Below are positions 12,090 to 62,519 of a stretch of DNA of 64,000 nucleotides, piece by piece. How positions within the stretch are numbered: position 1 is the first letter of the stretch; the number at the start of each line of letters is the position of its first letter. Below the pieces are notes generated by a model, which ran no database searches, was not told the DNA's origin, and was given only the letters and a program-made list of their open reading frames with translations. Origin of the DNA: Alloyangia pacifica (GTDB lineage: Bacteria; Pseudomonadota; Alphaproteobacteria; Rhodobacterales; Rhodobacteraceae); NCBI RefSeq assembly GCF_003111685.1, contig NZ_CP022190.1, forward strand, positions 248,001 through 312,000, written 5' to 3'. Position numbers and translations under genes: made by a program.

Positions 12090-12463
12090 GAGCCTGCTCG
12101 TGTTTTCTGATACTGTCCCTTCAATAACGCGAATTGCGGAAAGGGCAAAACCCAGAGTTCGCATTTCTCGTATTTTGGCGAAGATTTTCAGGATTACGGG
12201 ATTTCTGCACCGTCCAAGGCGTGGACTCGGTGACAGCTCTGGGGCCAAAATGGTGGATAAGGTGACAATCACCCCCCATAATGGTGTCACCATGCCTGTC
12301 ACCCATTACCAATAAACCGATTTTTTCCAAATAAATTTGGATAAGGGTTCCGGTCCCGCTTTTTTGTCCACATTGACAAACGACGGGAAAATCGAGCAGT
12401 CTCGAAGCCAATGGGGAATCGGCCAATGAAGCCGGACCCGAAGCGGCGGCAGAGCAGACGAAC
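12090..12463. other. Origin-like intergenic region between parA and the DnaA-like initiator
   Basis: This 374-bp gene-free region contains four copies of a GGTGACA-type motif. Two are direct (12229-12235, 12261-12267) and two inverted (within 12283-12291 and 12297-12304). A stretch richer in A and T than the surroundings follows, with the inverted repeat TCCAAAT-AA-ATTTGGA (12326-12341). Two GANTC sites are present (12224, 12415). Repeated short motifs beside an A+T-rich stretch, directly in front of an initiator gene, are the usual form of a plasmid origin or of initiator/ParA operators. Function is inferred. Confidence 0.55.
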
Positions 12464-13165
12464 ATGGACTTCAAACGATTTACGGGACCTCAGGCAGGAT
12501 CCCAGAAATATGACCTGTTGACGGCCTTGGCCCTTGCCGGGCTGAACGGATCACCGGGATTCCAGACCTCGATGCTGCGTCTCGTGGCGCTTGTCACGGC
12601 GCGCTACAACTGGCGGAACGACGAGCTGACAGTCGGCCAGCGCGAGATGGCGCGGCTCTGGTCGGTCGATGAGCGGACGGTGAAACGTGAGATCAAGCGC
12701 CTGACAAAAACCGAGATCCTGCTCCAGCTCAGGCCCGGCGTGCGGGGCAGGGTGGCCGCCTACCGGCTCAATTATTCCGAGGTCTACCGGCTTTCTGCGC
12801 CGCATTGGGAGAACGTCGGCCCCGATTTCTCTGCCCGCATGGAGGTCCAGCACCCAGAGCCTGCCGCCACTGGCGAAAAGGTTGTCCGCGTCGATTTCGG
12901 TGCGCGTGCGGCGGAAACTCCCGCGCCGAGCGCCGACAGCGGCCCCTGGTCGCGCACGTTGGCACGGCTGGCGCAGAGCGATCCCGGGCTGCACCGCAGC
13001 TGGTTCTCGGGCCTCGTCTTCGACGAGTTCGAGCAGGGGCTGCTGATGCTCAAGGCGCCGTCGGCCTTTGCGGCGCAATACGTGCTGACCCACCACCTGC
13101 GCCCGCTGCAGGGCATGGCCGCGCAGGAGTTTCACGGCCTGCGCCGCATCGAGATCACCGGCTGA
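12464..13165 (+). CDS. DnaA-like plasmid replication initiator
   Basis: A 233-residue protein. Residues about 55-105 form a winged-helix-like segment (MARLWSVDERTVKREIKRL...). The C-terminal part from about residue 160 resembles the N-terminal domain of DnaA: WSRTLARL, then WFSGLVFDEFEQGLLMLKAPSAFAAQYVLTH is the W-L-L...AP..F...V pattern. There is no AAA+ ATPase domain, so this is not the chromosomal DnaA. DnaA-like replicases with divergent or adjacent parAB are a described plasmid class in Rhodobacterales. The ribosome site is weak. Recognition is by pattern only; a search would settle the class. Confidence 0.75.
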   Translation: MDFKRFTGPQAGSQKYDLLTALALAGLNGSPGFQTSMLRLVALVTARYNWRNDELTVGQREMARLWSVDERTVKREIKRLTKTEILLQLRPGVRGRVAAYRLNYSEVYRLSAPHWENVGPDFSARMEVQHPEPAATGEKVVRVDFGARAAETPAPSADSGPWSRTLARLAQSDPGLHRSWFSGLVFDEFEQGLLMLKAPSAFAAQYVLTHHLRPLQGMAAQEFHGLRRIEITG

Positions 13166-13418
13166 CCTCAAGGCGTGTCGAGGCGCTGTCTTCTAGGGTC
13201 AGGTGTCTCGGGGGTGGGGCCTCGCTTCTCTCGGCGCCCGTCGCGCGCGTCCGGTCTTCCACGAGTCGCTCCCCCGCATCCAAGATGCCCCTGCGGCATC
13301 TTCTCAAACCACTGATAAATAAAGCTCCTTTCGGTCACTGACACAGGGCGCTTTACAATAGTAATAAAGTAATACTTAATATTCCAAGGACCTGAGGAGA
13401 GGTCCATGGGAGGACATC
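13166..13418. promoter_or_regulatory. Gap before ytfQ with stem-loop and promoter-like sequence
   Basis: A perfect 8-bp inverted repeat (AAGATGCC-CCTGC-GGCATCTT, 13282-13302) may end the initiator transcript, although no T-run follows. The last 70 bp before ytfQ are A+T-rich, with TTTACA at 13352 and TACTTAAT at 13373; no hexamer pair is convincing. The ribosome site GAGGAGAGG is well placed, at 13394-13402, before the ytfQ ATG. Confidence 0.45.
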
Positions 13419-14372
13419 ATGAACATTCTTAAGAGCTTGCTCGCAAGCGCCGCTATCCTTGTGCCCGCCGCCGCCATGGCCGAGGGCGAAACCATCGGCT
13501 TTTCGCAGATCGGATCCGAATCCGGCTGGCGCGCCGCCGAGACCACGGTCACCAAGCAACAGGCCGAGGAGCGTGGGTACGACCTGAAATTCGCCGACGC
13601 GCAGCAGAAGCAGGAGAACCAGATCAAGGCGATCCGCGGCTTCGTCGCGCAGGGTGTCGACGCGATTTTGCTCGCGCCCGTGGTCGCCACCGGCTGGGAG
13701 GACGTGCTCGAAGAGGCCAAGGACGCCGACATTCCGGTGATCCTGCTCGACCGCAACATCGATGCGCCGGAAGATCTCTACATGACCGCCGTGACCTCGG
13801 ACCAGGTGCACGAGGGCATGGTGGCCGGCAATTGGCTCAAGGACGCCGTCGCCGGTGAGGAATGCCCGATCGTGGAGCTTCAGGGCACCACAGGCTCGTC
13901 GCCCGCGATCTCGCGCAAGAAGGGCTTCGAAGAGGCCATCGCCGATGCGCCCAATCTCAAGATCACCCGCAGCCAGACCGGGGATTTCACCCGCGCGCAG
14001 GGCAAGGTGGTCATGGAGAGCTTCCTCAAGTCCGAGGGCGGCGAGAACATCTGCGCGCTCTATGCGCATAACGACGACATGGCGGTGGGCGCCATCCAGG
14101 CGATCAAGGAAGCCGGGCTGAAGCCGGGCGAGGACATCAAGATCGTGTCGATCGACTCGGTGCCGGACATCCACCTTGCCATGCAGGCCGGCGAGGCCAA
14201 CGCGACGGTCGAGCTGACGCCGAACATGGCAGGCCCGGCCTTCGACGTGCTGGAAGCCTACTGGAAGGACGGCACCATGCCACCGAAGTGGATCCAGACC
14301 GAGTCCAAGCTCTACACGAGCGACGACGACAATGCGGCCATTTACGAGAGCAAGAAGAATCTCGGATACTGA
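13419..14372 (+). CDS. ytfQ: Periplasmic galactofuranose/sugar-binding protein (YtfQ type)
   Basis: A 317-residue binding protein with a signal peptide (MNILKSLLASAAILVPAAAMA, cleavage after AMA). Mature sequence EGETIGFSQIGSESGWRAAET and the segment DRNIDAPEDLYMTAVTSDQV are characteristic of YtfQ, the E. coli galactofuranose-binding protein. It starts a five-gene unit with an ATPase, two permeases and a GntR regulator, the same order as ytfQRT-yjfF. A stem-loop follows the stop codon. The ligand (galactofuranose, galactose or a related sugar) is inferred from family. Confidence 0.87.
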   Translation: MNILKSLLASAAILVPAAAMAEGETIGFSQIGSESGWRAAETTVTKQQAEERGYDLKFADAQQKQENQIKAIRGFVAQGVDAILLAPVVATGWEDVLEEAKDADIPVILLDRNIDAPEDLYMTAVTSDQVHEGMVAGNWLKDAVAGEECPIVELQGTTGSSPAISRKKGFEEAIADAPNLKITRSQTGDFTRAQGKVVMESFLKSEGGENICALYAHNDDMAVGAIQAIKEAGLKPGEDIKIVSIDSVPDIHLAMQAGEANATVELTPNMAGPAFDVLEAYWKDGTMPPKWIQTESKLYTSDDDNAAIYESKKNLGY

Positions 14373-14405
14373 CGCTGCGCGGCGGGGGCAGGACCCCTGC
14401 CGAAC

Positions 14406-14434
14406 GCGCCTTCCGGAGGGGGTCCGGGAGGCGC
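14406..14434 (+). other. Stem-loop between ytfQ and ytfR
   Basis: A long hairpin: GCGCCT-T-CCGGA, a loop of five G, then TCCGG-G-AGGCGC (12 pairs including one G-T). It follows the binding-protein gene, as after rhaS, chvE and the TAXI gene. Confidence 0.6.
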
Positions 14435-14464
14435 ACAACCCTGTCTAGGGGAGGGGACTTCGGG

Positions 14465-15963
<1,499 letters not shown>

Positions 15964-50939: not shown

Positions 50940-51635
50940 TCAGGCAGCCAACGTGCGCGCGGTGCCGCGGCGCTCGGAGACGCGCAGCCGGTAGCCCTCG
51001 CCGCGCACCGTCTCGATGGCGAGCGCTGCCTCGACCGGGGCGAGATGGGCGCGCAGGTTGCACATGTAGACGTCAAAGACCCGCGGCGCCGGCTCGTTCT
51101 CGAAGCCGTAGACGTGGTTCATCAGCGTCTCGCGTGTGGCGAGGCGGCCGGGGCGCAGGGCGAGGAATTCGAGGATCTCGTAGAGTTTGGGCGAAAGTGA
51201 GAGCGTCGTTGCGCCGAAATGCACCCGGCGTTTGTCGAGGTCGAAGCGCAGCGGGCCGCAATCGCTGACGGGCAGCGACACGCCATGCGCGCGCCGCGCC
51301 ACTGCGCCGAGGCGGGCAAGGATTTCTTCGGGGGAGGCTTCGGAGGGCAGCACGGTGTCGGCGCCAGCCATCAGCCAGGCGGCGATCTGCGCGCCGTCCG
51401 ACTCTCGCGAGATGACCGCGATCGGCACCTCGGGATTCCGCTCGCGCAGACGGGTCAGCGTGGTCTGGTTTCGCAGCACGCTGGCCTCGATCACCAGAAG
51501 GTCGTGCGCGCCGATGCGGTGGAACTCTTCGATGTCCTCGGCGGCCTCGCAGCGGGTCAGCAGCGTGCCGGTCTGCGCCAAGGCGTGACCGAGGCTCATC
51601 ATCTTCCAGGTGGTTTCAGCAATCAGATAACGCAT
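50940..51635 (-). CDS. Atypical OmpR-type response regulator lacking the phosphorylation aspartate
   Basis: A 231-residue protein from ATG 51635 (GAGGAG upstream). A receiver-like domain (1-120) precedes a winged-helix DNA-binding domain with LSPKLYEILEFLALRPGRLATRETLMNHVYG (about 148-178) and VFDVYMCNLRAHL. At the expected phosphoacceptor, DLLVIEASVL has glutamate. The N-terminal acidic pair is AETT instead of xEDD, and the conserved lysine near DTVLPSEAS is missing. It probably acts without phosphorylation. No histidine kinase gene is adjacent. Confidence 0.82.
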   Translation of the reverse strand: MRYLIAETTWKMMSLGHALAQTGTLLTRCEAAEDIEEFHRIGAHDLLVIEASVLRNQTTLTRLRERNPEVPIAVISRESDGAQIAAWLMAGADTVLPSEASPEEILARLGAVARRAHGVSLPVSDCGPLRFDLDKRRVHFGATTLSLSPKLYEILEFLALRPGRLATRETLMNHVYGFENEPAPRVFDVYMCNLRAHLAPVEAALAIETVRGEGYRLRVSERRGTARTLAA

Positions 51636-52394: not shown

Positions 52395-53456
52395 CTAGGA
52401 AATGCGCCGCAGATCGCCCGAGGCGAGCGAGGACTGCGACCAGTCGTTGGTGCCGTAGTAATCGCGGTACCAGTCGACGAAGGCCTGCACCCCCTTGGCG
52501 AGATCGGTGTCGGGGCGGTAGCCGGTCAGCCTGTGCAGCAGCGAGGCATCGGCCCAGGTCGCCGGCACGTCGCCGGGCTGCATGCACATGGGATTGCGCC
52601 GAGCTTCGAGGCCGGTGGCCCGCTCGATGGCGGCGATGAACTCGCCGAGCGGGACTGCCTGCGAATTGCCGATATTGATCACCCGCCACGGCGCGACCGG
52701 GGACAGCGAGTCTCCCTCGGGTACGATGCCGCCCTCTGGCCGCTTGGGCACCACGTCGATCAGCATCCGGATCCCCTGCACAAGGTCGGTGACATAGGTG
52801 AAGTCGCGCATCATCCGTCCATGGTTGTAGACGTCGATCGGCGCGCCGCTGAGGATCGCCTTGGTGAACTTGAAAAGCGCCATGTCCGGGCGGCCCCAAG
52901 GGCCGTAGACTGTGAAGAAGCGGAACATGGTGGTCGGCAGATCGTAAAGATGCGCATAGCTGTGCGCCATGCACTCGGTGGCCTTCTTGGTTGCCGCGTA
53001 GAAGGACATCTGGTGATCGGTGCGCTCGGGTTCGGTGTAGGGCATTTCCTTGTTGGCGCCATAGACAGAAGAGGTCGAGGCCAGCAGCATGTGGCACGGC
53101 GGATAGGCACGCGCCGCCTCGAGAAGTTCGAAGGTGCCCATCATGTTGCTTTCGAGATAGCTGCGCGGATCCTCGAGCGAGTGGCGCACCCCCGCCTGCG
53201 CCGCCAGATGCACGACGACGTCGGGCCGCTCGCGCGCGAAAATCTCGTCAAGCAAGCCTTTGGTCTCGATGGCGCTGTTGAGAACTGAGAAATCAGCGTG
53301 CTTCTGTAGTAGGGCCTGTCTGCGCCGTTTCAGCTCCACGTCATAATAGTTGGAAAGATTGTCGACCCCTACGACGCGAAACCCATCGTGCAGCAGTCGT
53401 TGACACAGATGGTACCCGATAAAGCCTGACGAGCCAGTGACCAAGGCCGTGCGCAT
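52395..53456 (-). CDS. NAD-dependent epimerase, UDP-glucuronate 4-epimerase type
   Basis: A 353-residue extended SDR enzyme from ATG 53456 (MRTALVTGSSGFIGYHL; a TTG one codon earlier was rejected). NAD motif TGSSGFIG (7-14), STSSVYGANKEMPY (about 126-140) and the catalytic YAATKKATE (about 153). GVDNLSNYYDVELKRRR is typical of the UDP-glucuronate/UDP-galacturonate epimerase branch. With UDP-glucose dehydrogenase encoded at 56.7-58.0 kb it would make UDP-galacturonate for a surface polysaccharide. The exact sugar is inferred. Confidence 0.87.
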   Translation of the reverse strand: MRTALVTGSSGFIGYHLCQRLLHDGFRVVGVDNLSNYYDVELKRRRQALLQKHADFSVLNSAIETKGLLDEIFARERPDVVVHLAAQAGVRHSLEDPRSYLESNMMGTFELLEAARAYPPCHMLLASTSSVYGANKEMPYTEPERTDHQMSFYAATKKATECMAHSYAHLYDLPTTMFRFFTVYGPWGRPDMALFKFTKAILSGAPIDVYNHGRMMRDFTYVTDLVQGIRMLIDVVPKRPEGGIVPEGDSLSPVAPWRVINIGNSQAVPLGEFIAAIERATGLEARRNPMCMQPGDVPATWADASLLHRLTGYRPDTDLAKGVQAFVDWYRDYYGTNDWSQSSLASGDLRRIS

Positions 53457-54035
53457 CAATGAACTCCTACAAAAAAAAATATTTTAAGAAATCAATATCT
53501 ATTGTCTTGTGGGCAGCTTGCGCACAACGCAAGAGCTTTCTGTTTTGAGGCCGGCTTTGCTCGGTGCACCGCCGGTCCCGGCCTATTCCAGCGGCGACTT
53601 GCCTTACGCGCGCCCGATCGATTTGCGAGACGCTAATGGCCCCTCGCGGAGTGCGAAGAGTGCACGAAAAGGGTGATTCGAGCGAGCCGCTTGGCGCGCG
53701 GACAACCGGTTAAAGGGCCGTGCAACATGACGGCGCGGCGGACCGGCCGGGCGTTCGCGAAATGTTGCCAGAGTGGAGAACAGAGGTTTGCCTATTTTTT
53801 GGGCATCACCACCTCTGCAGCGCGTACGATCCGATCTGTCTTATAGGACTGTTACAGTAGGCTATTCTCTTGCAACGAAACGGCTTTGCCGCGCCGGCTG
53901 GAGATAATCCCGCAGCGCTCGCGTCGGCGCGCGGTGAAGTGTGTGTGCAGCCTCGGTTAACGCAGCCTTAAAGATAATTGGCACAACCAACCGGCTGCGC
54001 TATAGTTCGAATCATTGGAGAAAGGAGTTTTTAGA
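53457..54035. promoter_or_regulatory. Long gene-free control region before the peptide cassette, with 17-bp inverted repeat
   Basis: 579 bp without a credible gene. The first 60 bp next to the epimerase start are A+T-rich (A-run at 53468). At 53790-53806 lies TGCCTA-TTTTT-TGGGCA, an imperfect inverted repeat that matches the one in front of the glycosyltransferase gene (61134-61150). The last 100 bp before the peptide gene contain no clear sigma-70 hexamers. The AAAGGAG ribosome site is at 54021-54027. Confidence 0.5.
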
Positions 54036-54254
54036 ATGACTGACAAGACCCCCATGGGGGACTCTCTCGAGTCTCCTGGCCGTCGTGAATTGCTGGGCAA
54101 GGCCGGGAAATATGCAGCGGTGACGCCGCTGGCTGTGACCGCGCTGCTGTCGACCTCGATGCAGGCAAATGCCGGCGGCATCTTCCGTTCGGGCGGCGTG
54201 AACTGCAAACCCGGTCGCAAGTACAAGATGAAGAAGAGATACGGCTCGCATTAA
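54036..54254 (+). CDS. 72-residue exported basic peptide, candidate modified-peptide precursor
   Basis: Starts MTDKTPMGDSLESPGRRELL. Residues 16-17 are RR, followed by a hydrophobic stretch (about 27-41) and an ANA cleavage-like site at 44-46, resembling a Tat-type or leader region. The remaining 26 residues are GG at 47-48, one cysteine (C57), nine basic residues and the C-terminus RYGSH with a serine at position 71. No family recognised. It has an excellent ribosome site and is followed by a hairpin and by genes for an HprK-like kinase and a nucleotidyltransferase. It could be a precursor modified by them, or simply a small exported protein. Confidence 0.7.
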   Translation: MTDKTPMGDSLESPGRRELLGKAGKYAAVTPLAVTALLSTSMQANAGGIFRSGGVNCKPGRKYKMKKRYGSH

Positions 54255-54282
54255 GCCGGCCCGGCGTTTGTTTACCCGGCTT
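54253..54282 (+). terminator. Hairpin with T-rich tail between the peptide and kinase genes
   Basis: Arms AAGCCGG / CCGGCTT begin inside the peptide's stop codon, with a 16-nt loop. The next 20 bases are T-rich and include runs of four and five T. It looks like an attenuating terminator that would let the small peptide be expressed above the enzymes. Confidence 0.55.
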
Positions 54283-54299
54283 CCTGATTTTCTTCATTT

Positions 54300-55394
54300 T
54301 TGAGAAGACGTAATTTGTTGAGTGAAACCCTTTTTGTCCTCCCCGCTGCAGGGGTCACGCTGGCGCAAGTGAACCGTCAGCATCTTCTCTTGGTCCCAGA
54401 GAAGGAACTTCTGTTTTCGGCCACTCCCCCGGTGGCCGAGGCTTGGGCAGGGTTTGAACTTGGCGTTGCGTCCGTGACATTGGATGCCGCTGCCGAAACA
54501 GGTGGCGGCATTCTTCTGGACCTGATGCAGATCGGCGCGCTCGAGCCGCTTGCGACCACCAGCGGCCCGGCACGGGTCGGCTGTTCCGAAACGCTGGATT
54601 TGGCCGGCGTTCATGTCGTGGTGGCCTTCGAGGATGACGCCCTGCGCACGGAGCTCATGCCCTGCTTCGCCCATCTGGCCGTGGCGCCCCGACGGGGCGA
54701 TGCGCATCTGGTGGTGCAGCGCGACGGAGACCGCATCGGGATCGCGCGCCGCGATGGGGACATGGAGTGGGTGGCGCCGCACGAGGCGGTGCCCCTGCTC
54801 AAGATCAAGATGACCGAGACCCTCTTTGATCATACGCAATACATCATGCTGCACGCCGCGCAGCTCGGTAGGGATGGGCGATGCCTGCTGCTGCTGGGCG
54901 ACGCGGGGGCGGGCAAGAGCACGCTTGCGACCGCGCTAGAAGGCGCCGGATTTGCCCTGCTGAGCGATGACATCGTGCTGCTTTCGCAAAGCGGCGAGGC
55001 CTCGGCCCTGCCGTTCCCGGTGACGCTCAAGGAAGGATCGTGGTCGTTGCTCGACCACCGCCGGGCCGAGATTCAGGACGCCGGGCAGCACTTGCGCCCG
55101 GATGCGCTGAGCGTGCGTTACCTCGGCCTGTCGGCTGAGGCCGGCTGGAAGGACGTCGGCTGGGTGCTGAAACTTGACCGACAGCCGGACGGCCCGGCCT
55201 CGGTCTCGGAGCTGTCGCTTGCCGAGACCTTCTCGGTGCTGCTCGGGGCCGCCTGGTCCGGCGAGGAGGCGATGTCGCCCGAGGTCTTCGAGGCCATGGC
55301 GGGTTGCCTGAATGGCGCGCGCTACGGGCGGCTGATCTATTCGGATTTGCCGCGGGCCCTCACCGAGGTGTCCCGCTTCTGCGAAGAGGGATGA
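54300..55394 (+). CDS. HprK-like serine kinase (HprK-related kinase A type)
   Basis: Up to 364 residues; no ATG is available, and TTG codons at 54300, 54315 or 54318 may start it. The C-terminal half is HPr-kinase-like: MLHAAQLGRDGRCLLLLGDAGAGKSTLA has the histidine and Walker A GDAGAGKST (200-208), followed by FALLSDDIVLL (219-227), the D-D motif of HprK. The N-terminal half (about 1-165) is unlike HprK. Such kinases accompany nucleotidyltransferases and small peptides in modified-peptide clusters, including phosphorylated lasso peptides. Phosphorylation of the upstream peptide is a hypothesis. Confidence 0.8.
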   Translation: MRRRNLLSETLFVLPAAGVTLAQVNRQHLLLVPEKELLFSATPPVAEAWAGFELGVASVTLDAAAETGGGILLDLMQIGALEPLATTSGPARVGCSETLDLAGVHVVVAFEDDALRTELMPCFAHLAVAPRRGDAHLVVQRDGDRIGIARRDGDMEWVAPHEAVPLLKIKMTETLFDHTQYIMLHAAQLGRDGRCLLLLGDAGAGKSTLATALEGAGFALLSDDIVLLSQSGEASALPFPVTLKEGSWSLLDHRRAEIQDAGQHLRPDALSVRYLGLSAEAGWKDVGWVLKLDRQPDGPASVSELSLAETFSVLLGAAWSGEEAMSPEVFEAMAGCLNGARYGRLIYSDLPRALTEVSRFCEEG

Positions 55395-55537
55395 CCGGAC
55401 CGCGAAGGGGGTATGAACTACTTGGAATTTCTGTTGAAAATGATTGTTGATAAGTGATTTTTAAGAATTCGATTTCAATTTACTGCGGTTTTTTTCAATC
55501 GCGTTGCGCCAATTTATAACGGCAATGGGACAGGCAC
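55395..55537. promoter_or_regulatory. A+T-rich gap between kinase and nucleotidyltransferase genes
   Basis: About 100 bp of markedly A+T-rich sequence (TTGTTGATAAGTGATTTTTAAG, then seven T at 55488-55494) stands out in this GC-rich DNA. It may hold a second promoter for the nucleotidyltransferase gene. No specific site recognised. Confidence 0.4.
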
Positions 55538-56509
55538 ATGAAAGCAGGCGTCGCAGCGTCCTCCCCGCTGGAACATCTCGGTCGTGCGCTCTGCGGCGAC
55601 CTCGGGCATGTGCCGGATTGGCCGGGGCTGATCGGAACGGCGAACGACGAGTTTGTCACCCCGGCCCTGTTTCAAAGGCTGCGCCAGGACGATGTACCGG
55701 CCGCCGAACCCGAGGCGATGGCCTATCTCGGAGAACTCGATTCCCTCAATTGTCGGCGGAATGGAAATCTCTGGGCCATGGTGATGGAATGCACGGGCCT
55801 GCTCAACGCCGAGGGCATCGTGCCGACCCTCATCAAGGGCGCCAGCGAGATGGCGCTCCAGAACGATCCCGCGCAATTCTACAGGCTGATGATCGACGTC
55901 GATCTCCTGGTCGAGCCCAGCGAGATCGCCCGCGCGCAGCAGCTGCTGACGCAGGAGGGGTTCGAGCGGATCGAAGACAGCGAATACGCGCATTCCCCCG
56001 GCAGCTTCTGGAAGGCGGGGTACGTCGGCACGCTCGATCTGCATGCCGGTCTGCAATCGGACATCGGGCGCTTCCTGTCCGAGGGCGATTGGCTGGGCCG
56101 GCGCGAGCTGCGCAGCCGCGATGGGCTGCGGTTTTACATTCCTGATGCGTCCATGCGCCTGCTGATCAACATCAGCCACGACATGCTGCATCACACCGGC
56201 CTCGCGCGCGGGGGTATCAGTTTGCGCTACCTCCTGCCGCTCCGCGCACTGCTCCGCAACGAGGGCGGCGCGCTCGACTGGCCCTGGCTGCTCTGGCTGC
56301 GCCGAGACCGCGGCTTCCGCCTCGCCTTCGATCTGCAGTTGCTCATGCTGCAGGAACTCTTCGGCCTGCCACTTCCGCAGGGAGTACAGCCGGATCTTGC
56401 AACACGGGCTCTTCACCGGCGCCGCCTGATCAAGGCACGCCATCCCCGCCTGGCCGATCTGGAATGGGCCGTGGTGAAACCGATCTACTCCCGGCTGAAA
56501 AGGCATTGA
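55538..56509 (+). CDS. Nucleotidyltransferase-family protein (NTP_transf_5 type)
   Basis: A 323-residue protein. VPTLIKGASEMAL (about 96-108) and YRLMIDVDLLVEP (about 115-127) form the K-G and D-x-D pattern of the uncharacterised nucleotidyltransferases found beside HprK-related kinases and lasso-peptide kinases. A later HDMLHHTG segment is histidine-rich. Chemistry unknown: nucleotidyl or phosphoryl transfer to a peptide or sugar is possible. Same strand as the peptide and kinase. Confidence 0.8.
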   Translation: MKAGVAASSPLEHLGRALCGDLGHVPDWPGLIGTANDEFVTPALFQRLRQDDVPAAEPEAMAYLGELDSLNCRRNGNLWAMVMECTGLLNAEGIVPTLIKGASEMALQNDPAQFYRLMIDVDLLVEPSEIARAQQLLTQEGFERIEDSEYAHSPGSFWKAGYVGTLDLHAGLQSDIGRFLSEGDWLGRRELRSRDGLRFYIPDASMRLLINISHDMLHHTGLARGGISLRYLLPLRALLRNEGGALDWPWLLWLRRDRGFRLAFDLQLLMLQELFGLPLPQGVQPDLATRALHRRRLIKARHPRLADLEWAVVKPIYSRLKRH

Positions 56510-56663
56510 CCAATACAGCCATACGGCTGGTGCCTGCCCGTCTGGCACCACTTCCTCCCCTCATGAGGCCGCCAGCAGGCACAGCAAAGCGAATCTGCTT
56601 TGAGTTGTGCCTTGAGGGCGGTACATCATGCTCATTGTTATTGCTTTTCTGAGGATTGTTGCG

Positions 56664-57986
56664 ATGAAGATTGCCATTATCGGCACCGGTTACGTGGGCC
56701 TTGTCTCGGGCGTGTGTTTCTCCGACTTCGGTCACGAGGTGGTTTGCGTCGACAAGGACCCGCGCAAGATCGAGATGCTCGAGCGCGGCGAGGTGCCGAT
56801 CTACGAGCCGGGGCTGGACACGCTCATGGCCAAGAACGTCGAGGCGGGGCGGCTGTCGTTCACCCTCGACCTGCACGCGGCCATCGACGGTGCCGAGGCG
56901 GTGTTCATCGCGGTTGGCACGCCCACGCGGCGCGGCGATGGCCATGCGGATCTCACCTACGTGATGGCCGCCGCCGAGGAGATCGCCAAGGCCGCCGATC
57001 ACTACATCGTCGTGGTCACGAAATCGACCGTCCCTGTCGGCACCAACCGCAAGGTGCAGGAGGTGGTCGCCGCCGCCAATCCCGCGCTCGACTTCGACGT
57101 GGCCTCGAATCCCGAGTTCCTGCGCGAAGGTGCGGCGATCGACGATTTCATGAAGCCCGACCGGGTCGTGGTCGGCGTCGAGAATGACCGCGCCGCCAAG
57201 GTCATGGAAGACATCTACCGCCCGCTCTACCTGCGCGATTTCCCGATCGTCACCACCGACCTCGAGTCCGCCGAGATGATCAAATACGCCGCCAACGCCT
57301 TTCTCGCGACGAAGATCACCTTCATCAACGAGATCGCCGCGCTCTGCGAGAAGGTCGGCGCGGACGTGAAGAGCGTGTCCAAGGGCATGGGGCTCGACGG
57401 GCGCATCGGCAACAAGTTCCTGCACGCCGGGCCGGGCTACGGCGGCTCGTGTTTCCCGAAAGATACCAAGGCGCTGGCCCGTATCGGCCAGGAACATGCC
57501 GCGCCGATCTCCATCGTCGAGACGGTGATCAAGGTCAATGAGGACACCAAGCGGCGGATGACCGACAAGCTGCTCGACCTCTGCGGTGGCAGCTTCAACG
57601 GCAAGAAGGTCGCCGTGCTCGGCGTCACCTTCAAGCCCAACACCGACGACATGCGCGACGCGCCCTCGCTGACCATCGTGCCGGCGCTGGTGGGCGGTGG
57701 GGCTTCGGTCTCGGTGGTCGACCCGCAGGGCAAGCGTGAGGGTGAGGCGCTGCTGCCGGGCGTGGCTTGGGAGGATGATCCCTATGCCGCCGCCAAGGAC
57801 GCCGACCTGCTGGTCATCCTCACCGAATGGAACGAGTTCCGCGCGCTCGATCTGCAGGCGCTGGCCAAGGGCATGGCAACGCCCCGCATGGCCGATCTGC
57901 GCAATATCTACACCTACGAGGATGCTCTGGCCGCTGGCTTCAGCGATTACGAGAGCGTTGGCCGCGGCGATCCCGCGACGGCCTGA
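56664..57986 (+). CDS. ugd: UDP-glucose 6-dehydrogenase
   Basis: A 440-residue enzyme oxidising UDP-glucose to UDP-glucuronate. ATG 56664 (MKIAIIGTGYVGLVSGVCF) is preceded by GAGGA; upstream codons are not protein-like. NAD motif GTGYVG (7-12). The catalytic cysteine is in GPGYGGSCFPKDTKAL (about 253-268). KSTVPVGT and NPEFLREG are family motifs. It feeds the epimerase encoded at 52.4 kb. An inverted repeat GGTGCC-N9-GGCACC lies upstream at 56529-56549. Confidence 0.96.
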   Translation: MKIAIIGTGYVGLVSGVCFSDFGHEVVCVDKDPRKIEMLERGEVPIYEPGLDTLMAKNVEAGRLSFTLDLHAAIDGAEAVFIAVGTPTRRGDGHADLTYVMAAAEEIAKAADHYIVVVTKSTVPVGTNRKVQEVVAAANPALDFDVASNPEFLREGAAIDDFMKPDRVVVGVENDRAAKVMEDIYRPLYLRDFPIVTTDLESAEMIKYAANAFLATKITFINEIAALCEKVGADVKSVSKGMGLDGRIGNKFLHAGPGYGGSCFPKDTKALARIGQEHAAPISIVETVIKVNEDTKRRMTDKLLDLCGGSFNGKKVAVLGVTFKPNTDDMRDAPSLTIVPALVGGGASVSVVDPQGKREGEALLPGVAWEDDPYAAAKDADLLVILTEWNEFRALDLQALAKGMATPRMADLRNIYTYEDALAAGFSDYESVGRGDPATA

Positions 57987-58065: not shown

Positions 58066-60768
58066 TCAGCCTAGAATGCTGTCGCTCGGCATGAACTCGA
58101 GCGCGTCGATGCGCAGCGGTTCGTTGCCGCTGTCGCCATGGCCCGCGAGCACGATCTCGTCGCCTGCTTCGATCTCGACATCCGAGATGACATGGCGGGT
58201 GAGCGTGTTCTTGTTCGCCAGGCGATCGCCGAGGTCGGCATCCCAGTGCCAGGAGTCGACGACCTCGCCGTTGACGCTGACCTCAAGGTAGGACACGCCA
58301 TCGGTTTCGTCGAAATAGTCGACGCCGATGTCATACGTGCCGGTTTCCCCGTCGAAGGTCGCCGTTGCCTCGGCATTGCCAAGCGCGCTCAGCACGTGGC
58401 CACCGGAGGCGGCCGCGATGTCGGAGACGCCGAAGCCCTTCTTGACGGTCGAGTCGAACTGGAAGGTCTCTGCTTCCATCCACAGCCATTCGCCGGAGCT
58501 GCTGGCGGCCTGTTCGCTGGAACCGTCGCTGGAACCGTCGCTGAGGCCGGTCATCTCGAGGCTGACCGTGTCGATGCGTAGCGGCTCGCGGCCATCGTGC
58601 TGGCCTTGGAGCGTGACGACGTCCCCCTCTTTCAGCTCGAGGTTCTCGATGACCTTGGAGGTGAGGGTGGTCTTGTTGGCCAGGGCGCTGCCCAGATCCT
58701 CATCCCAATCCCAGCTCGTGACCTTTTCACCGTTGACGAGGACCGCCAGCGAGCTCACGCCGTCGTTCTCATCGTAGTAGTTGACGGTGAGGCTGTAGAC
58801 CCCAGCGTCGCCGTCGAAGGCCAGCGAGGCATCCTGCAGCGCGCCGCTCTCGTTCTGGATGACCTTGCCACTCGAGGAGCCGGACAGCGACTTGACCACC
58901 CATCCGTCGGTGAGCTCGAGGTCTTCGGCCTCGACAGAGATTACCGTGCCGATCGCGTCGATGTTGCCGGTGCCGACTTCAGGGCCGGTTCCAGTTCCGG
59001 TGTCGACGAGCGAGTCCTCGATCTCGGCAGTCATCTCGAGGCTGACGGTGTCGATGCGCAGCGGCTCGCTGCGATCGTGCTGGCCCTGCAGGGTGACGAC
59101 GTCACCTTCCTTGAGCTCGAGACCCTCGATCACCTTCGAGGTGAGGGTGGTCTTGTTGGCCAGCGCGCTGCCCAGCTCCTGGTTCCAGTCCCAGGTTGCG
59201 ACCTGCTCGCCGTTGACGAGGACCGCCAGCGTGCTCACGCCGTCGTTCTCGTCGTAGTAGTTGACGGTGAGGCTGTAGACCCCGGCGTCGCCGTCGAAGG
59301 CCAGCGAGGCGCTCTGCAGCTCGCCGCTCTCGTTCTGGATCACTTTGCCGCCCGAGGAGCCGGACAGCGACTTGGTCGCCCAGCCTTCGGTGAGCACGAG
59401 ATCTTCCGCCTCGACGGTGATCACGGTGCCGACGGAAGAGCCGGTGGAATCGCCGCCGCCCACGATGGTGGTCTCATCCGAGCCGTCGGTGACGTCGGAG
59501 ATGTCGCCGCCGATATCGTCGCCCTCGGTGACCGTATCGGAGAAGCCGTCGAGCAGGCCGTTGATGTAGTCCTCGATGTTCGAGAAGCCGTCACCGTCAG
59601 CATCCTTGTTGGCGTCCGCGACGCTGGAGTTGGAGCCGATGATCTTCTCGTAATGGTCGGGAATGCCATCGCCGTCGCTGTCCTTCAGCGCGTCGACGGG
59701 CGTGTGCTTGCCGTAACCGCCAACATCATCCGGCGAGTCGATCAGCTTGCTGGATTCATTGATCACGCTGTCGATAATGCGCTGGTCGATGTCGCTCAGC
59801 TCGCCGTTGACGCGCGCGCCGGCGTTCGCGAGGATCCAGTCGAGGGCTTCGGCCGCCGACATCACCTCGGTCGTGGCCGGGTCGAAGACGAAGTTCTTTT
59901 CGATCTGCGAGGTGTTCTCGCCGCCGATCTCGCCGACGTTGTCGGACACGTAGTACGCGGCCTCGCCGGTGCTACCGATGAAGCGGATGGCTTCGCGACC
60001 GCTGGAGTCCTCGCCTTTGATGAAGGTGTTGCCGATCACATGCACCGTCGAGGCGCCCGCCGCGACGAGGCCTTCGTTGCCGTAGTTGTAGATGACGTTG
60101 TTGATGAACTCGATGTTCTTCGCGTCATCCTTGATCAGCGCGTTGCGGAACTTGTTGCTGACAAGCAGGTTGCCGATGACGCTGACGTTCGAGCTGTGAT
60201 CGCCGATCAGCATGCCCATGCTGTGCTGACCCTTCGGGTGCAGCGACTCCTTGAGCGCCTCGGCCACGATGTTGTTCGAGATCGTGATGTTGCTCGGCGA
60301 GCCCCAGGTCGCGACGTTCTCGTCGATCGACCAGCTGATCGAGTTGCTGTCCAGAATGACGTGCTCGACCGTGTTGCCGGCCTTGCCGATCGAAATGCCG
60401 TCGCGGTCATCTGGGTTCTGCCCGTCGGGATCGTCCCCCGGACGCACGGTCATGCCACGGATGATCACGTTGCTTTCAACAACCCGTAGACGGGCGCCGG
60501 TCACGGTGATCCCCCCGGGCGCAGTCTGCCCGGCCAACGTGACGTCGCCGTTAATTTCGATGTGGCTGGTCAGATCGATTTGTCCGCCAACTTCGAAAAC
60601 CACAATGCGCGGCCCGTCGAGATCTTCCAGAGCCCAGCGAAGCGAACCTTCCCCGGAGTCGTTCAGATTTGTAACTTTAACAATTTCACCACCACGGCCA
60701 CCAGTTGCGCTTGCACCAAACCCCTGCGCTCCCTCAAACGCGAGAAGCTCTGAATTCTTGTCCACCAT
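58066..60768 (-). CDS. Large beta-helix polysaccharide lyase with Ca-binding linker and three carbohydrate-binding-like repeats
   Basis: 900 residues. Residues about 1-300 form a pectate-lyase-like parallel beta-helix: LLAFEGAQGFGASATGGRGGE opens it exactly as PL1 proteins open after their signal peptide, and later N-I-x-I-S-N-N repeats form helix turns. Residues about 357-400 have calcium motifs DSDGDGIPDHYE and DADGDGFSNIEDYIN. Three beta-sandwich-like modules follow, each with V-E-A-E(D/T) at the start and EPLRID at the end (about 443-580, 602-740, 755-895). No N-terminal signal peptide, so type I secretion is likely. It would cleave a uronate-containing polysaccharide. Confidence 0.8.
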   Translation of the reverse strand: MVDKNSELLAFEGAQGFGASATGGRGGEIVKVTNLNDSGEGSLRWALEDLDGPRIVVFEVGGQIDLTSHIEINGDVTLAGQTAPGGITVTGARLRVVESNVIIRGMTVRPGDDPDGQNPDDRDGISIGKAGNTVEHVILDSNSISWSIDENVATWGSPSNITISNNIVAEALKESLHPKGQHSMGMLIGDHSSNVSVIGNLLVSNKFRNALIKDDAKNIEFINNVIYNYGNEGLVAAGASTVHVIGNTFIKGEDSSGREAIRFIGSTGEAAYYVSDNVGEIGGENTSQIEKNFVFDPATTEVMSAAEALDWILANAGARVNGELSDIDQRIIDSVINESSKLIDSPDDVGGYGKHTPVDALKDSDGDGIPDHYEKIIGSNSSVADANKDADGDGFSNIEDYINGLLDGFSDTVTEGDDIGGDISDVTDGSDETTIVGGGDSTGSSVGTVITVEAEDLVLTEGWATKSLSGSSGGKVIQNESGELQSASLAFDGDAGVYSLTVNYYDENDGVSTLAVLVNGEQVATWDWNQELGSALANKTTLTSKVIEGLELKEGDVVTLQGQHDRSEPLRIDTVSLEMTAEIEDSLVDTGTGTGPEVGTGNIDAIGTVISVEAEDLELTDGWVVKSLSGSSSGKVIQNESGALQDASLAFDGDAGVYSLTVNYYDENDGVSSLAVLVNGEKVTSWDWDEDLGSALANKTTLTSKVIENLELKEGDVVTLQGQHDGREPLRIDTVSLEMTGLSDGSSDGSSEQAASSSGEWLWMEAETFQFDSTVKKGFGVSDIAAASGGHVLSALGNAEATATFDGETGTYDIGVDYFDETDGVSYLEVSVNGEVVDSWHWDADLGDRLANKNTLTRHVISDVEIEAGDEIVLAGHGDSGNEPLRIDALEFMPSDSILG
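58551..59420 (-). repeat. Tandem duplication of a carbohydrate-binding-like module inside the lyase gene
   Basis: DNA around 58551-58940 and 59031-59420 is nearly identical with an offset of 480 bp (160 codons). Examples: TCATCTCGAGGCTGAC at both starts and the shared CGTCGTTCTC(A/G)TCGTAGTAG segment. Translations share GSALANKTTLTSKVI and VYSLTVNYYDENDGVS. The third module (nearest the C-terminus) is diverged. Confidence 0.85.
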
Positions 60769-61325: not shown

Positions 61326-62519
61326 ATGCGACAGATCAGTCTGCTAGCCGTGACCAAGTCGACCGGGGGCATCGCCCTCTACAACAAGCTGCTCCTGACT
61401 GAACTGAGGCGGATCGGAGTACGGACCCACACGCTTTGCCTTTCCGAAAACAACGAGGCCTATGCCGCCGATCTTGCCCGGCGCGGCCTCAGCGCCGAGC
61501 CCCTGGACATGGCGCGCTACAGCATCGACCTCGGCGGCGACGCCAGGGTGCTGCGCCGGGTCATCGCGTCGGCCCGCGCGCAGGCGGCGGATGTGATTGT
61601 CTGCCACGGCAGCAAGTCGGGGTTCCTTGGCCGTGCCGCCGGGCGGATCACCGGCATCCCCGTCGTCTACCGTCAAGCGTCGATGCCCTTCCAGCGTCGG
61701 GTGCAGGGGGCCAAGGCGCCGCTCTACTGGGCGCTGGATTTCGTCGCCCGCGGCTTCGGCGGCCACGTCGTGACCCTGACCGACCAGGCGCGGCGGGAAA
61801 CGCTCAAGGCACGGTTGATGCCGCCCGAGCGGGTCAGCGTGATCCGCACCGGCGTAGACGTGGAGCGGTTTCGCCCGCCCGCGGACCGGGCCGAGGCGCG
61901 CCGCGCCCTCGGGCTCGACCCGGACCGGCCCGTGGTAGGCTGGATGGGCCGCATCGAGCCGCAGAAGGCGCCGCTCGACTACATAGAGTCCCTGCGCGCT
62001 CTGGTCGGGCGCTACCCGCAGGCGCAATTCGTCATGGCTGGCGAAGGCCGGCTGCAGCGCGAGGTTGATCTGGCGCTGGCCGCGGCGGGGCTTTCGGACC
62101 GGGTGAGGATGCTGGGTTGGCAGTCCGACCCGGTCGCGGCGCTGCAGGCCTTCGACATCTATGTGCTCAGCTCGCATTGGGAGGGGCTGCCGATCACCCT
62201 GCTCGAGGCCATGGCCTGCGGCTGCTGCTGCATCTCCACCGACGTGGACGGATGCTCTGATGCACTCGAGGACGGTGTCAGCGGACGCCTCGTCGGGGCC
62301 GGCGACACGCGGGCGCTGGCCGATGCACTGGACAGCGTGCTGGGCGATCCCGACCTGCGCGCGCGCTACGCCGCGGCTGGACGGCTCCGCGCGGTGACGC
62401 TTTTCGACAAGGAAACCATGGTCGCCAAATGGGTCGAGCTGCTCTCGACGCTGACCACCGGACGGGCGCCCGTGCCGCTCGGAAGCACGGCGGAAGCGGC
62501 ATCGGAGGGGGGGAAATGA
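61326..62519 (+). CDS. GT4-family glycosyltransferase (first)
   Basis: A 397-residue GT-B fold enzyme starting MRQISLLAVTKSTGGIALYNKLLL. The donor-site features VGWMGRIEPQKAP (about 205-217) and SSHWEGLPITLLEAMACG (about 278-295; E-x7-E) are GT4 signatures. It overlaps the next glycosyltransferase by 4 bp. Acceptor and sugar unknown; the neighbourhood suggests assembly of a uronate-containing exopolysaccharide. Confidence 0.9.
   Translation: MRQISLLAVTKSTGGIALYNKLLLTELRRIGVRTHTLCLSENNEAYAADLARRGLSAEPLDMARYSIDLGGDARVLRRVIASARAQAADVIVCHGSKSGFLGRAAGRITGIPVVYRQASMPFQRRVQGAKAPLYWALDFVARGFGGHVVTLTDQARRETLKARLMPPERVSVIRTGVDVERFRPPADRAEARRALGLDPDRPVVGWMGRIEPQKAPLDYIESLRALVGRYPQAQFVMAGEGRLQREVDLALAAAGLSDRVRMLGWQSDPVAALQAFDIYVLSSHWEGLPITLLEAMACGCCCISTDVDGCSDALEDGVSGRLVGAGDTRALADALDSVLGDPDLRARYAAAGRLRAVTLFDKETMVAKWVELLSTLTTGRAPVPLGSTAEAASEGGK

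Follow-up and report, generated by a model that had tools for sequence, protein, structure and literature searches.

The systems closest to the locus described here are the Linear Polyphosphorylated Peptides (LPPs) of Bacillota and the lasso-tailoring systems of paeninodin and pseudomycoidin. According to the available text of Popov et al. (2026; PMC13381572), LPPs occur only in Bacillota and carry up to four phosphates on core Ser3, for which Thr or Tyr is no substitute; the final LPP products have not been identified, and the authors know of no biological role for either LPPs or paeninodins. In lasso-tailoring kinases a His-Lys-Asp-Asp quartet is required, and in the pseudomycoidin system the partner enzyme PsmN adds hexoses to phospho-Ser (PMC9266682, from the portion of the article available). 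Here we analyze a stretch of 64,000 nucleotides of Alloyangia pacifica, referred to as the window (C2:248001-312000, in a genome totalling 5.17 Mb), which carries a trio of adjacent genes for a small peptide, an HprK-like kinase and a nucleotidyltransferase. By analogy to the systems above, the trio appears to make a small exported peptide that would be tagged with phosphate, and perhaps sugar, before export. We found no published description of it in a literature search that left most subscription literature and all bioRxiv preprints outside.

A three-gene locus encoding a candidate phosphopeptide

The three open reading frames (ORFs) had been picked out in an earlier note made from the letters of this DNA, and an ORF check places them, all on the forward strand, as follows:

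54036..54254, + strand: peptide precursor gene, 72 amino acids plus stop, an ORF under purifying selection
54036..54173, + strand: leader, residues 1-46, with an RR motif and an AxA-like end; predicted twin-arginine translocation (Tat) signal and predicted ligand of an RRE, the recognition element of ribosomally synthesized and post-translationally modified peptides (RiPPs)
54174..54251, + strand: predicted mature peptide, GGIFRSGG and a basic tail
54189-54191, + strand: Ser52, candidate phosphosite
54318..55394, + strand: RRE-HprK fusion kinase, from fold model and family matches, with a likely TTG start
54321..54572, + strand: predicted N-terminal RRE (PqqD-like) domain of the kinase, from a model with a predicted local distance difference test (pLDDT) of 83.9 and from Foldseek and VIA matches
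55538..56509, + strand: nucleotidyltransferase, PF14907 (NTP_transf_5), from Pfam

The peptide matches none of the families in Pfam and NCBIfam. It is nevertheless a real gene under purifying selection, since the nonsynonymous rate (dN) lies far below the synonymous rate (dS) in all 21 pairs formed by seven same-genus copies (dN 0-0.058 versus dS 0.30-1.42 over the first 54 codons), which rules out a chance ORF. In these copies the leader and the GGIFRSGG block are nearly invariant, and the tail varies in length and sequence. When 18 peptides from same-genus and more distant loci are compared, all the leaders carry the RR motif and all the peptides a Ser that lies between residues 47 and 57 within [RKCA]-S-[GC]-G; in 8 of the 18, no Ser or Thr follows it. 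Ser52 of the window peptide is residue 6 past the AxA-like site, and in the Leisingera and rhizobial peptides the conserved Ser stands almost directly past that site. The leader looks like a Tat signal, its hydrophobic stretch and AxA-like site having been judged by eye rather than by a predictor. Net positive charge makes up 30 to 74% of tail residues in 13 peptides labelled polysaccharide-linked and 4 to 8% in three labelled not linked (L058, L187, L188), the labels being based on Pfam and annotation and, for L058, L060, L061 and L062, partly on ORFs read by eye; L189 (24%) and the orphan L063 described below (40%) were left outside both classes. This distribution suggests that the basic tails bind acidic polysaccharide.

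The kinase frame ends at 55394; its first in-frame TTG lies at 54300, and the alignments of its relatives begin at the TTG at 54318. Its GDAGAGKST and LLSDDIVLL motifs are real, and the catalytic His-Lys-Asp-Asp residues are kept in all 18 kinases compared. The assignment as an HprK-like kinase holds at the level of the model, which has the HprK/PEPCK fold (pLDDT 89.2), but not at the level of sequence, where the scores stay under the family cut-offs (22.4 bits against Hpr_kinase_C, cut-off 33.3). HprK_rel_A (TIGR04352), the best NCBIfam match, reaches 68.2 bits against a cut-off of 200, and the HprK-related kinase A identity that had been brought up for this locus is rejected on that score. 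TIGR04352 kinases are found in exosortase loci alongside a PqqD-like protein that is separate from the kinase; in this genome the exosortase genes are on contig C7 rather than C2.

The earlier note had also reported that a PqqD-like gene was missing, which is incorrect in that modelling points to an RRE-like (PqqD-like) domain fused to the N-terminus of the kinase. This domain was modelled alone because PEPCK and HprK took up the results of a fold search made with the whole kinase and hid the RRE; its 12 best Foldseek matches are then all RiPP proteins, each with a weak score. By sequence the domain has no Pfam match, and an RRE profile run against solved structures gave a best E of 0.33 with no RRE among the matches. 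Some relatives carry a recognizable PqqD domain inside the same protein. Elsewhere in the genome PqqD exceeds its cut-off only once, on contig C4. PF27840, which is listed for several relatives, is absent from the Pfam scans of the window proteins and of the relatives.

The third protein matches PF14907 with E 1.1e-22 (81.3 bits, cut-off 31.2). The nucleotidyltransferase motifs noticed earlier are borne out by the alignment, in which K, G, R and D-x-D are invariant in 8/8 sequences; a profile of the protein found no match among solved structures.

Co-occurrence of kinase and peptide

In a set of 61 genomes, 20 of them from the same genus, matches to the kinase (E 1e-170 or better) and to the peptide fall in the same seven genomes, all of this one genus, and the gene order of the trio is identical in all seven. 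The nearest named relatives of the kinase are in records of Alloyangia and Salipiger. Across 390 genomes of the order, a kinase profile (E below 1e-90) and a leader profile (E below 1e-20) select the same six genomes, own included; this agreement is partly circular because these loci had gone into the leader profile, while that in the 61 genomes is not. The three genes stand side by side in 5/5 additional Rhodobacterales loci with a strong kinase match. In a plasmid collection 21 records match the kinase, and the trio is present in all six that were opened: Leisingera caerulea, L. aquaemixtae, Parasedimentitalea psychrophila, Ensifer canadensis, E. adhaerens and Sinorhizobium meliloti pSymB (so named). 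The peptide gene is placed after the nucleotidyltransferase gene in three rhizobial records. Judged from these comparisons of sequence, the conservation of the trio is more than chance.

The earlier note had held that its reading would fail if homologues of the enzymes were found mostly without the peptide gene. Among close relatives the opposite is found, kinase and peptide occurring in the same genomes; among distant relatives the picture is mixed, since 15 weaker loci comprise 8 with a leader-profile peptide, 3 with an RR-type ORF unmatched by the profile and 4 with neither. At the level of the order, where 11 of 14 other kinase-match genomes were opened, including 6 of the 9 weaker ones, the leader-profile peptides are in L049, L064, L065 and L180 and the RR-type ORF is in L068. 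At the level of the class (327 genomes), the kinase profile matches 17 genomes, own included, at 1e-12 or better, and 9 of the 16 others were opened: a leader-profile peptide lies within about 1.6 kb in L168, L169, L170 and L171 (the last cut by a contig end), and L172 and L179 have RR-type ORFs. Neither L170 nor L171 yielded a nucleotidyltransferase. The leader profile at 1e-3 or better matches 18 class-level genomes, five of which also match the kinase, the own genome being counted in both numbers; among the genomes that match the leader profile alone, several of the matches fall within long open frames and could be chance hits. Two groups of loci weigh against strict co-occurrence: within the stretches opened, the kinase loci L066, L173, L178 and L181 have no detected peptide, and L088, L174, L175, L176 and L177 have leader-profile peptides with no kinase.

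Several further observations were made in these loci. One genome, G010, carries a second, orphan peptide gene (L063, G010:C1, 9622-9861, + strand) whose product combines the same leader with a C-S-G-G core; the 19.5 kb stretch opened has no match to either the kinase or the nucleotidyltransferase, and this peptide could be modified in trans. Downstream of the L060 trio (12173-14554), three ORFs have by eye the look of an IS66-type transposon and might offer a means of mobility. L188 (CP090106.1), titled pSymB, has a length of 3.72 Mb, and its stretch includes hisD, infA and yacG, so that it may be a wrongly labelled chromosome. A second roseobacter leader type (RRE/KxLxxxxKYs..GAS.V.LSA.EA) accompanies small peptides in L049, L065, L087 and L088, as many as three of the peptides standing one after another in L049; the genes for both enzymes adjoin them in L049, L065 and L087, not in L088. 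The RR-leader peptides of L168, L169, L175 and L176 have in common a core resembling NNGFGNG..DG.PG.SG, with a kinase near in L168 and L169 and none in the L175 and L176 stretches; no literature description related to the NGFGNG motif was found.

A proposed mechanism and its alternatives

Taken as a whole scheme, we consider it fairly probable that the product of the locus is a linear RiPP, phosphorylated on Ser and exported by the Tat route. The 46-residue leader would act both as the ligand of the kinase-fused RRE and as a Tat-type signal peptide. With the leader bound to the RRE, the HprK-like domain would put one or more phosphates on Ser52 of the SGG motif, and the PF14907 protein would then decorate that phosphate with a group derived from a sugar or nucleotide. 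Once exported by Tat, the peptide would be cut by signal peptidase after the AxA-like site, whereupon its basic tail may bind the polysaccharide made by the surrounding genes.

We favour this scheme because kinase and peptide share their presence pattern in both the 61 and the 390 genomes, because the trio is side by side in the five distant strong loci and the six plasmid records, because the predicted RRE and HprK folds are joined with a quartet kept in 18/18 kinases, and because the Ser is present in 18/18 peptides and is the sole Ser/Thr onward in eight. The published precedents count in the same direction, as the available parts of both articles describe enzymes of the same kinds phosphorylating core Ser3 in LPPs (PMC13381572) and PsmN hexosylating phospho-Ser in pseudomycoidin (PMC9266682).

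Polysaccharide genes beside the trio, here and in Parasedimentitalea and Leisingera, together with the basic tails of all 13 peptides labelled polysaccharide-linked, would also fit a division of labour in which the two enzymes work on a sugar or lipid carrier used in making polysaccharide, and the peptide is co-expressed with them as an unmodified cationic polysaccharide binder. We regard this as unlikely in view of the RRE-like domain fused to the kinase, of two rhizobial records that have the trio without annotated polysaccharide genes in the stretch, and of the Ser, not the tail, being the feature common to all 18 peptides. Alternatively, the peptide might be modified with phosphorylation not as the end point, for example by direct nucleotidylation, the kinase then serving as an RRE-bearing partner or as the maker of a transient phosphate. 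The invariant K, G, R and D-x-D of the eight nucleotidyltransferases could be read in this way, and the final LPP products have not been identified either (PMC13381572, available text); yet the catalytic residues of the kinase are kept in every one of the 18 sequences and L170 has the kinase with no nucleotidyltransferase detected, and we find this quite unlikely. An ordinary HPr(Ser) kinase that is no more than a neighbour of the peptide, as the HprK-family fold alone might allow, is barely credible: kinase and peptide share a presence pattern among close relatives, and contig C1 of the same genome has a short separate HprK-like match.

The linear phosphopeptide scheme can be widened to an alphaproteobacterial RiPP family reaching from roseobacters to rhizobia, in which a Tat signal doubles as RRE leader, phospho-Ser is joined by a phosphodiester to surface polysaccharide, and CtrA controls expression in this genus; we offer this extended version as a speculation that is improbable in full. 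If the linear phosphopeptide scheme is true, such RiPPs extend beyond Bacillota to Alphaproteobacteria and do so with a simpler design than in LPP, consisting of one fused RRE-kinase and one decorating enzyme, a general export route of the cell replacing the dedicated peptidase and pump. If the tethering part is true as well, a ribosomal peptide would be covalently attached to the biofilm matrix. A function is suggested for PF14907, a family labelled uncharacterized in Pfam, and the records of Sinorhizobium, Ensifer and Leisingera with the trio open the role of such peptides to tests in culturable bacteria.

Genomic setting and upstream region

The Pfam families of the flanking ORFs confirm that the trio is set among polysaccharide genes, as first proposed, and a conserved region precedes the peptide gene:

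52395..53459, - strand: sugar-nucleotide epimerase/dehydratase family gene (Pfam), on the same side in 7/7 same-genus loci
53957..53971, + strand: TTAA-N7-TTAA, a CtrA-type site upstream of the peptide gene, sole match in the window with 0.01 expected
53978..54006, + strand: promoter-like TTGGCA-17-TATAGT from a consensus scan, in a region kept in 7/7 same-genus loci
56628..57986, + strand: UDP-glucose/GDP-mannose dehydrogenase family gene (Pfam), on the same side in 7/7 same-genus loci
58066..60768, - strand: beta-helix protein (Pfam Beta_helix)
61326..62519, + strand: glycosyltransferase (Pfam)

TTAA-N7-TTAAC is the consensus for CtrA site prediction in Dinoroseobacter shibae (PMC4046655, available portion). 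The window's TTAA-N7-TTAA is kept in all seven same-genus loci with a varying spacer sequence, and we put forward as a suggestion that the peptide gene may be under CtrA control in this genus. Against it, the pattern is not enriched genome-wide (16 sites versus 13 for the reversed pattern), and among the other-genus loci scanned only L087 has a CtrA-type site just upstream of a small RR peptide.

Another ORF of the window looks like a glycosyltransferase by eye. The dehydrogenase is not specific to the trio, because matches at E 1e-100 or better occur in 9 of 19 other same-genus genomes and the trio is missing in five of the nine (G004, G008, G012, G016, G018); in G009, G013 and G015 this neighbour is hidden because the trio lies close to a contig edge. 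A search with residues 1-400 of the beta-helix protein finds matches with E below 1e-90 in five of the 390 genomes, every one a trio carrier, and the sixth carrier, G198, is without a match. This protein has repeated C-terminal modules and no N-terminal signal by eye, and additional copies occur in G000, G217 and G332. An OmpR-family response regulator is encoded at 50940-51635 on the - strand, 2.4 kb before the peptide gene; its best solved match is BasR (E 1.2e-17), the usual receiver Asp is missing by eye, and copies 90-95% identical are present in 4/4 named same-genus loci checked. Further afield, the 58 kb plasmid of Parasedimentitalea combines the trio with beta-helix, glycosyltransferase, sulfotransferase, lipopolysaccharide biosynthesis and O-antigen ligase genes, and the Leisingera trio is adjoined by genes for a cadherin-like protein and polysaccharide export. 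Two rhizobial stretches have the trio and no annotated polysaccharide genes in the part shown.

Comparison with known systems

For this comparison we take LppN of the LPP systems to be the counterpart of the PF14907 protein, and PsmN to be PF14907-like. The trio shares with LPP, so far as the available description goes, a linear peptide, an HprK-like kinase (here by fold and His-Lys-Asp-Asp), an RRE, an NTP transferase (here PF14907), a candidate Ser near the cleavage site and a setting in polysaccharide loci. It differs in that the RRE is fused to the kinase and not discrete, in that [YW]xxP occurs in 0/18 leaders whereas LPP leaders have a YxxP motif, in the resemblance of its leader to a Tat signal, and in its host, an alphaproteobacterium rather than a member of Bacillota. 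Because discrete RRE and YxxP leader are both lacking, the trio is not filed as LPP. Neither a SipW-like peptidase nor an MsbA-like exporter, features of LPP clusters, was recognized among the ORFs beside the trio; no profile search dedicated to either of the two was made.

With paeninodin and pseudomycoidin, as described in the available text, the trio has in common an HprK-like kinase with His-Lys-Asp-Asp and a PsmN-type partner annotated as a nucleotidyltransferase, but their Ser stands at the C-terminus of the core and the candidate Ser here near its start. In the whole genome the best score for lasso leader peptidase B2 (PF13471) is 13.6 bits, the cut-off being 26; a lasso peptide identity is rejected on this leader peptidase result, in support of the earlier proposal of a peptide-tailoring trio outside the lasso type. 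As in RRE-dependent RiPP systems, the model places an RRE-like domain within a tailoring enzyme, with weak single scores. The trio is a variant on known phosphopeptide-tailoring systems, filed neither as LPP nor as HprK-related kinase A nor as lasso, and its mode of action would by analogy resemble that of LPP and of the tailoring half of paeninodin or pseudomycoidin.
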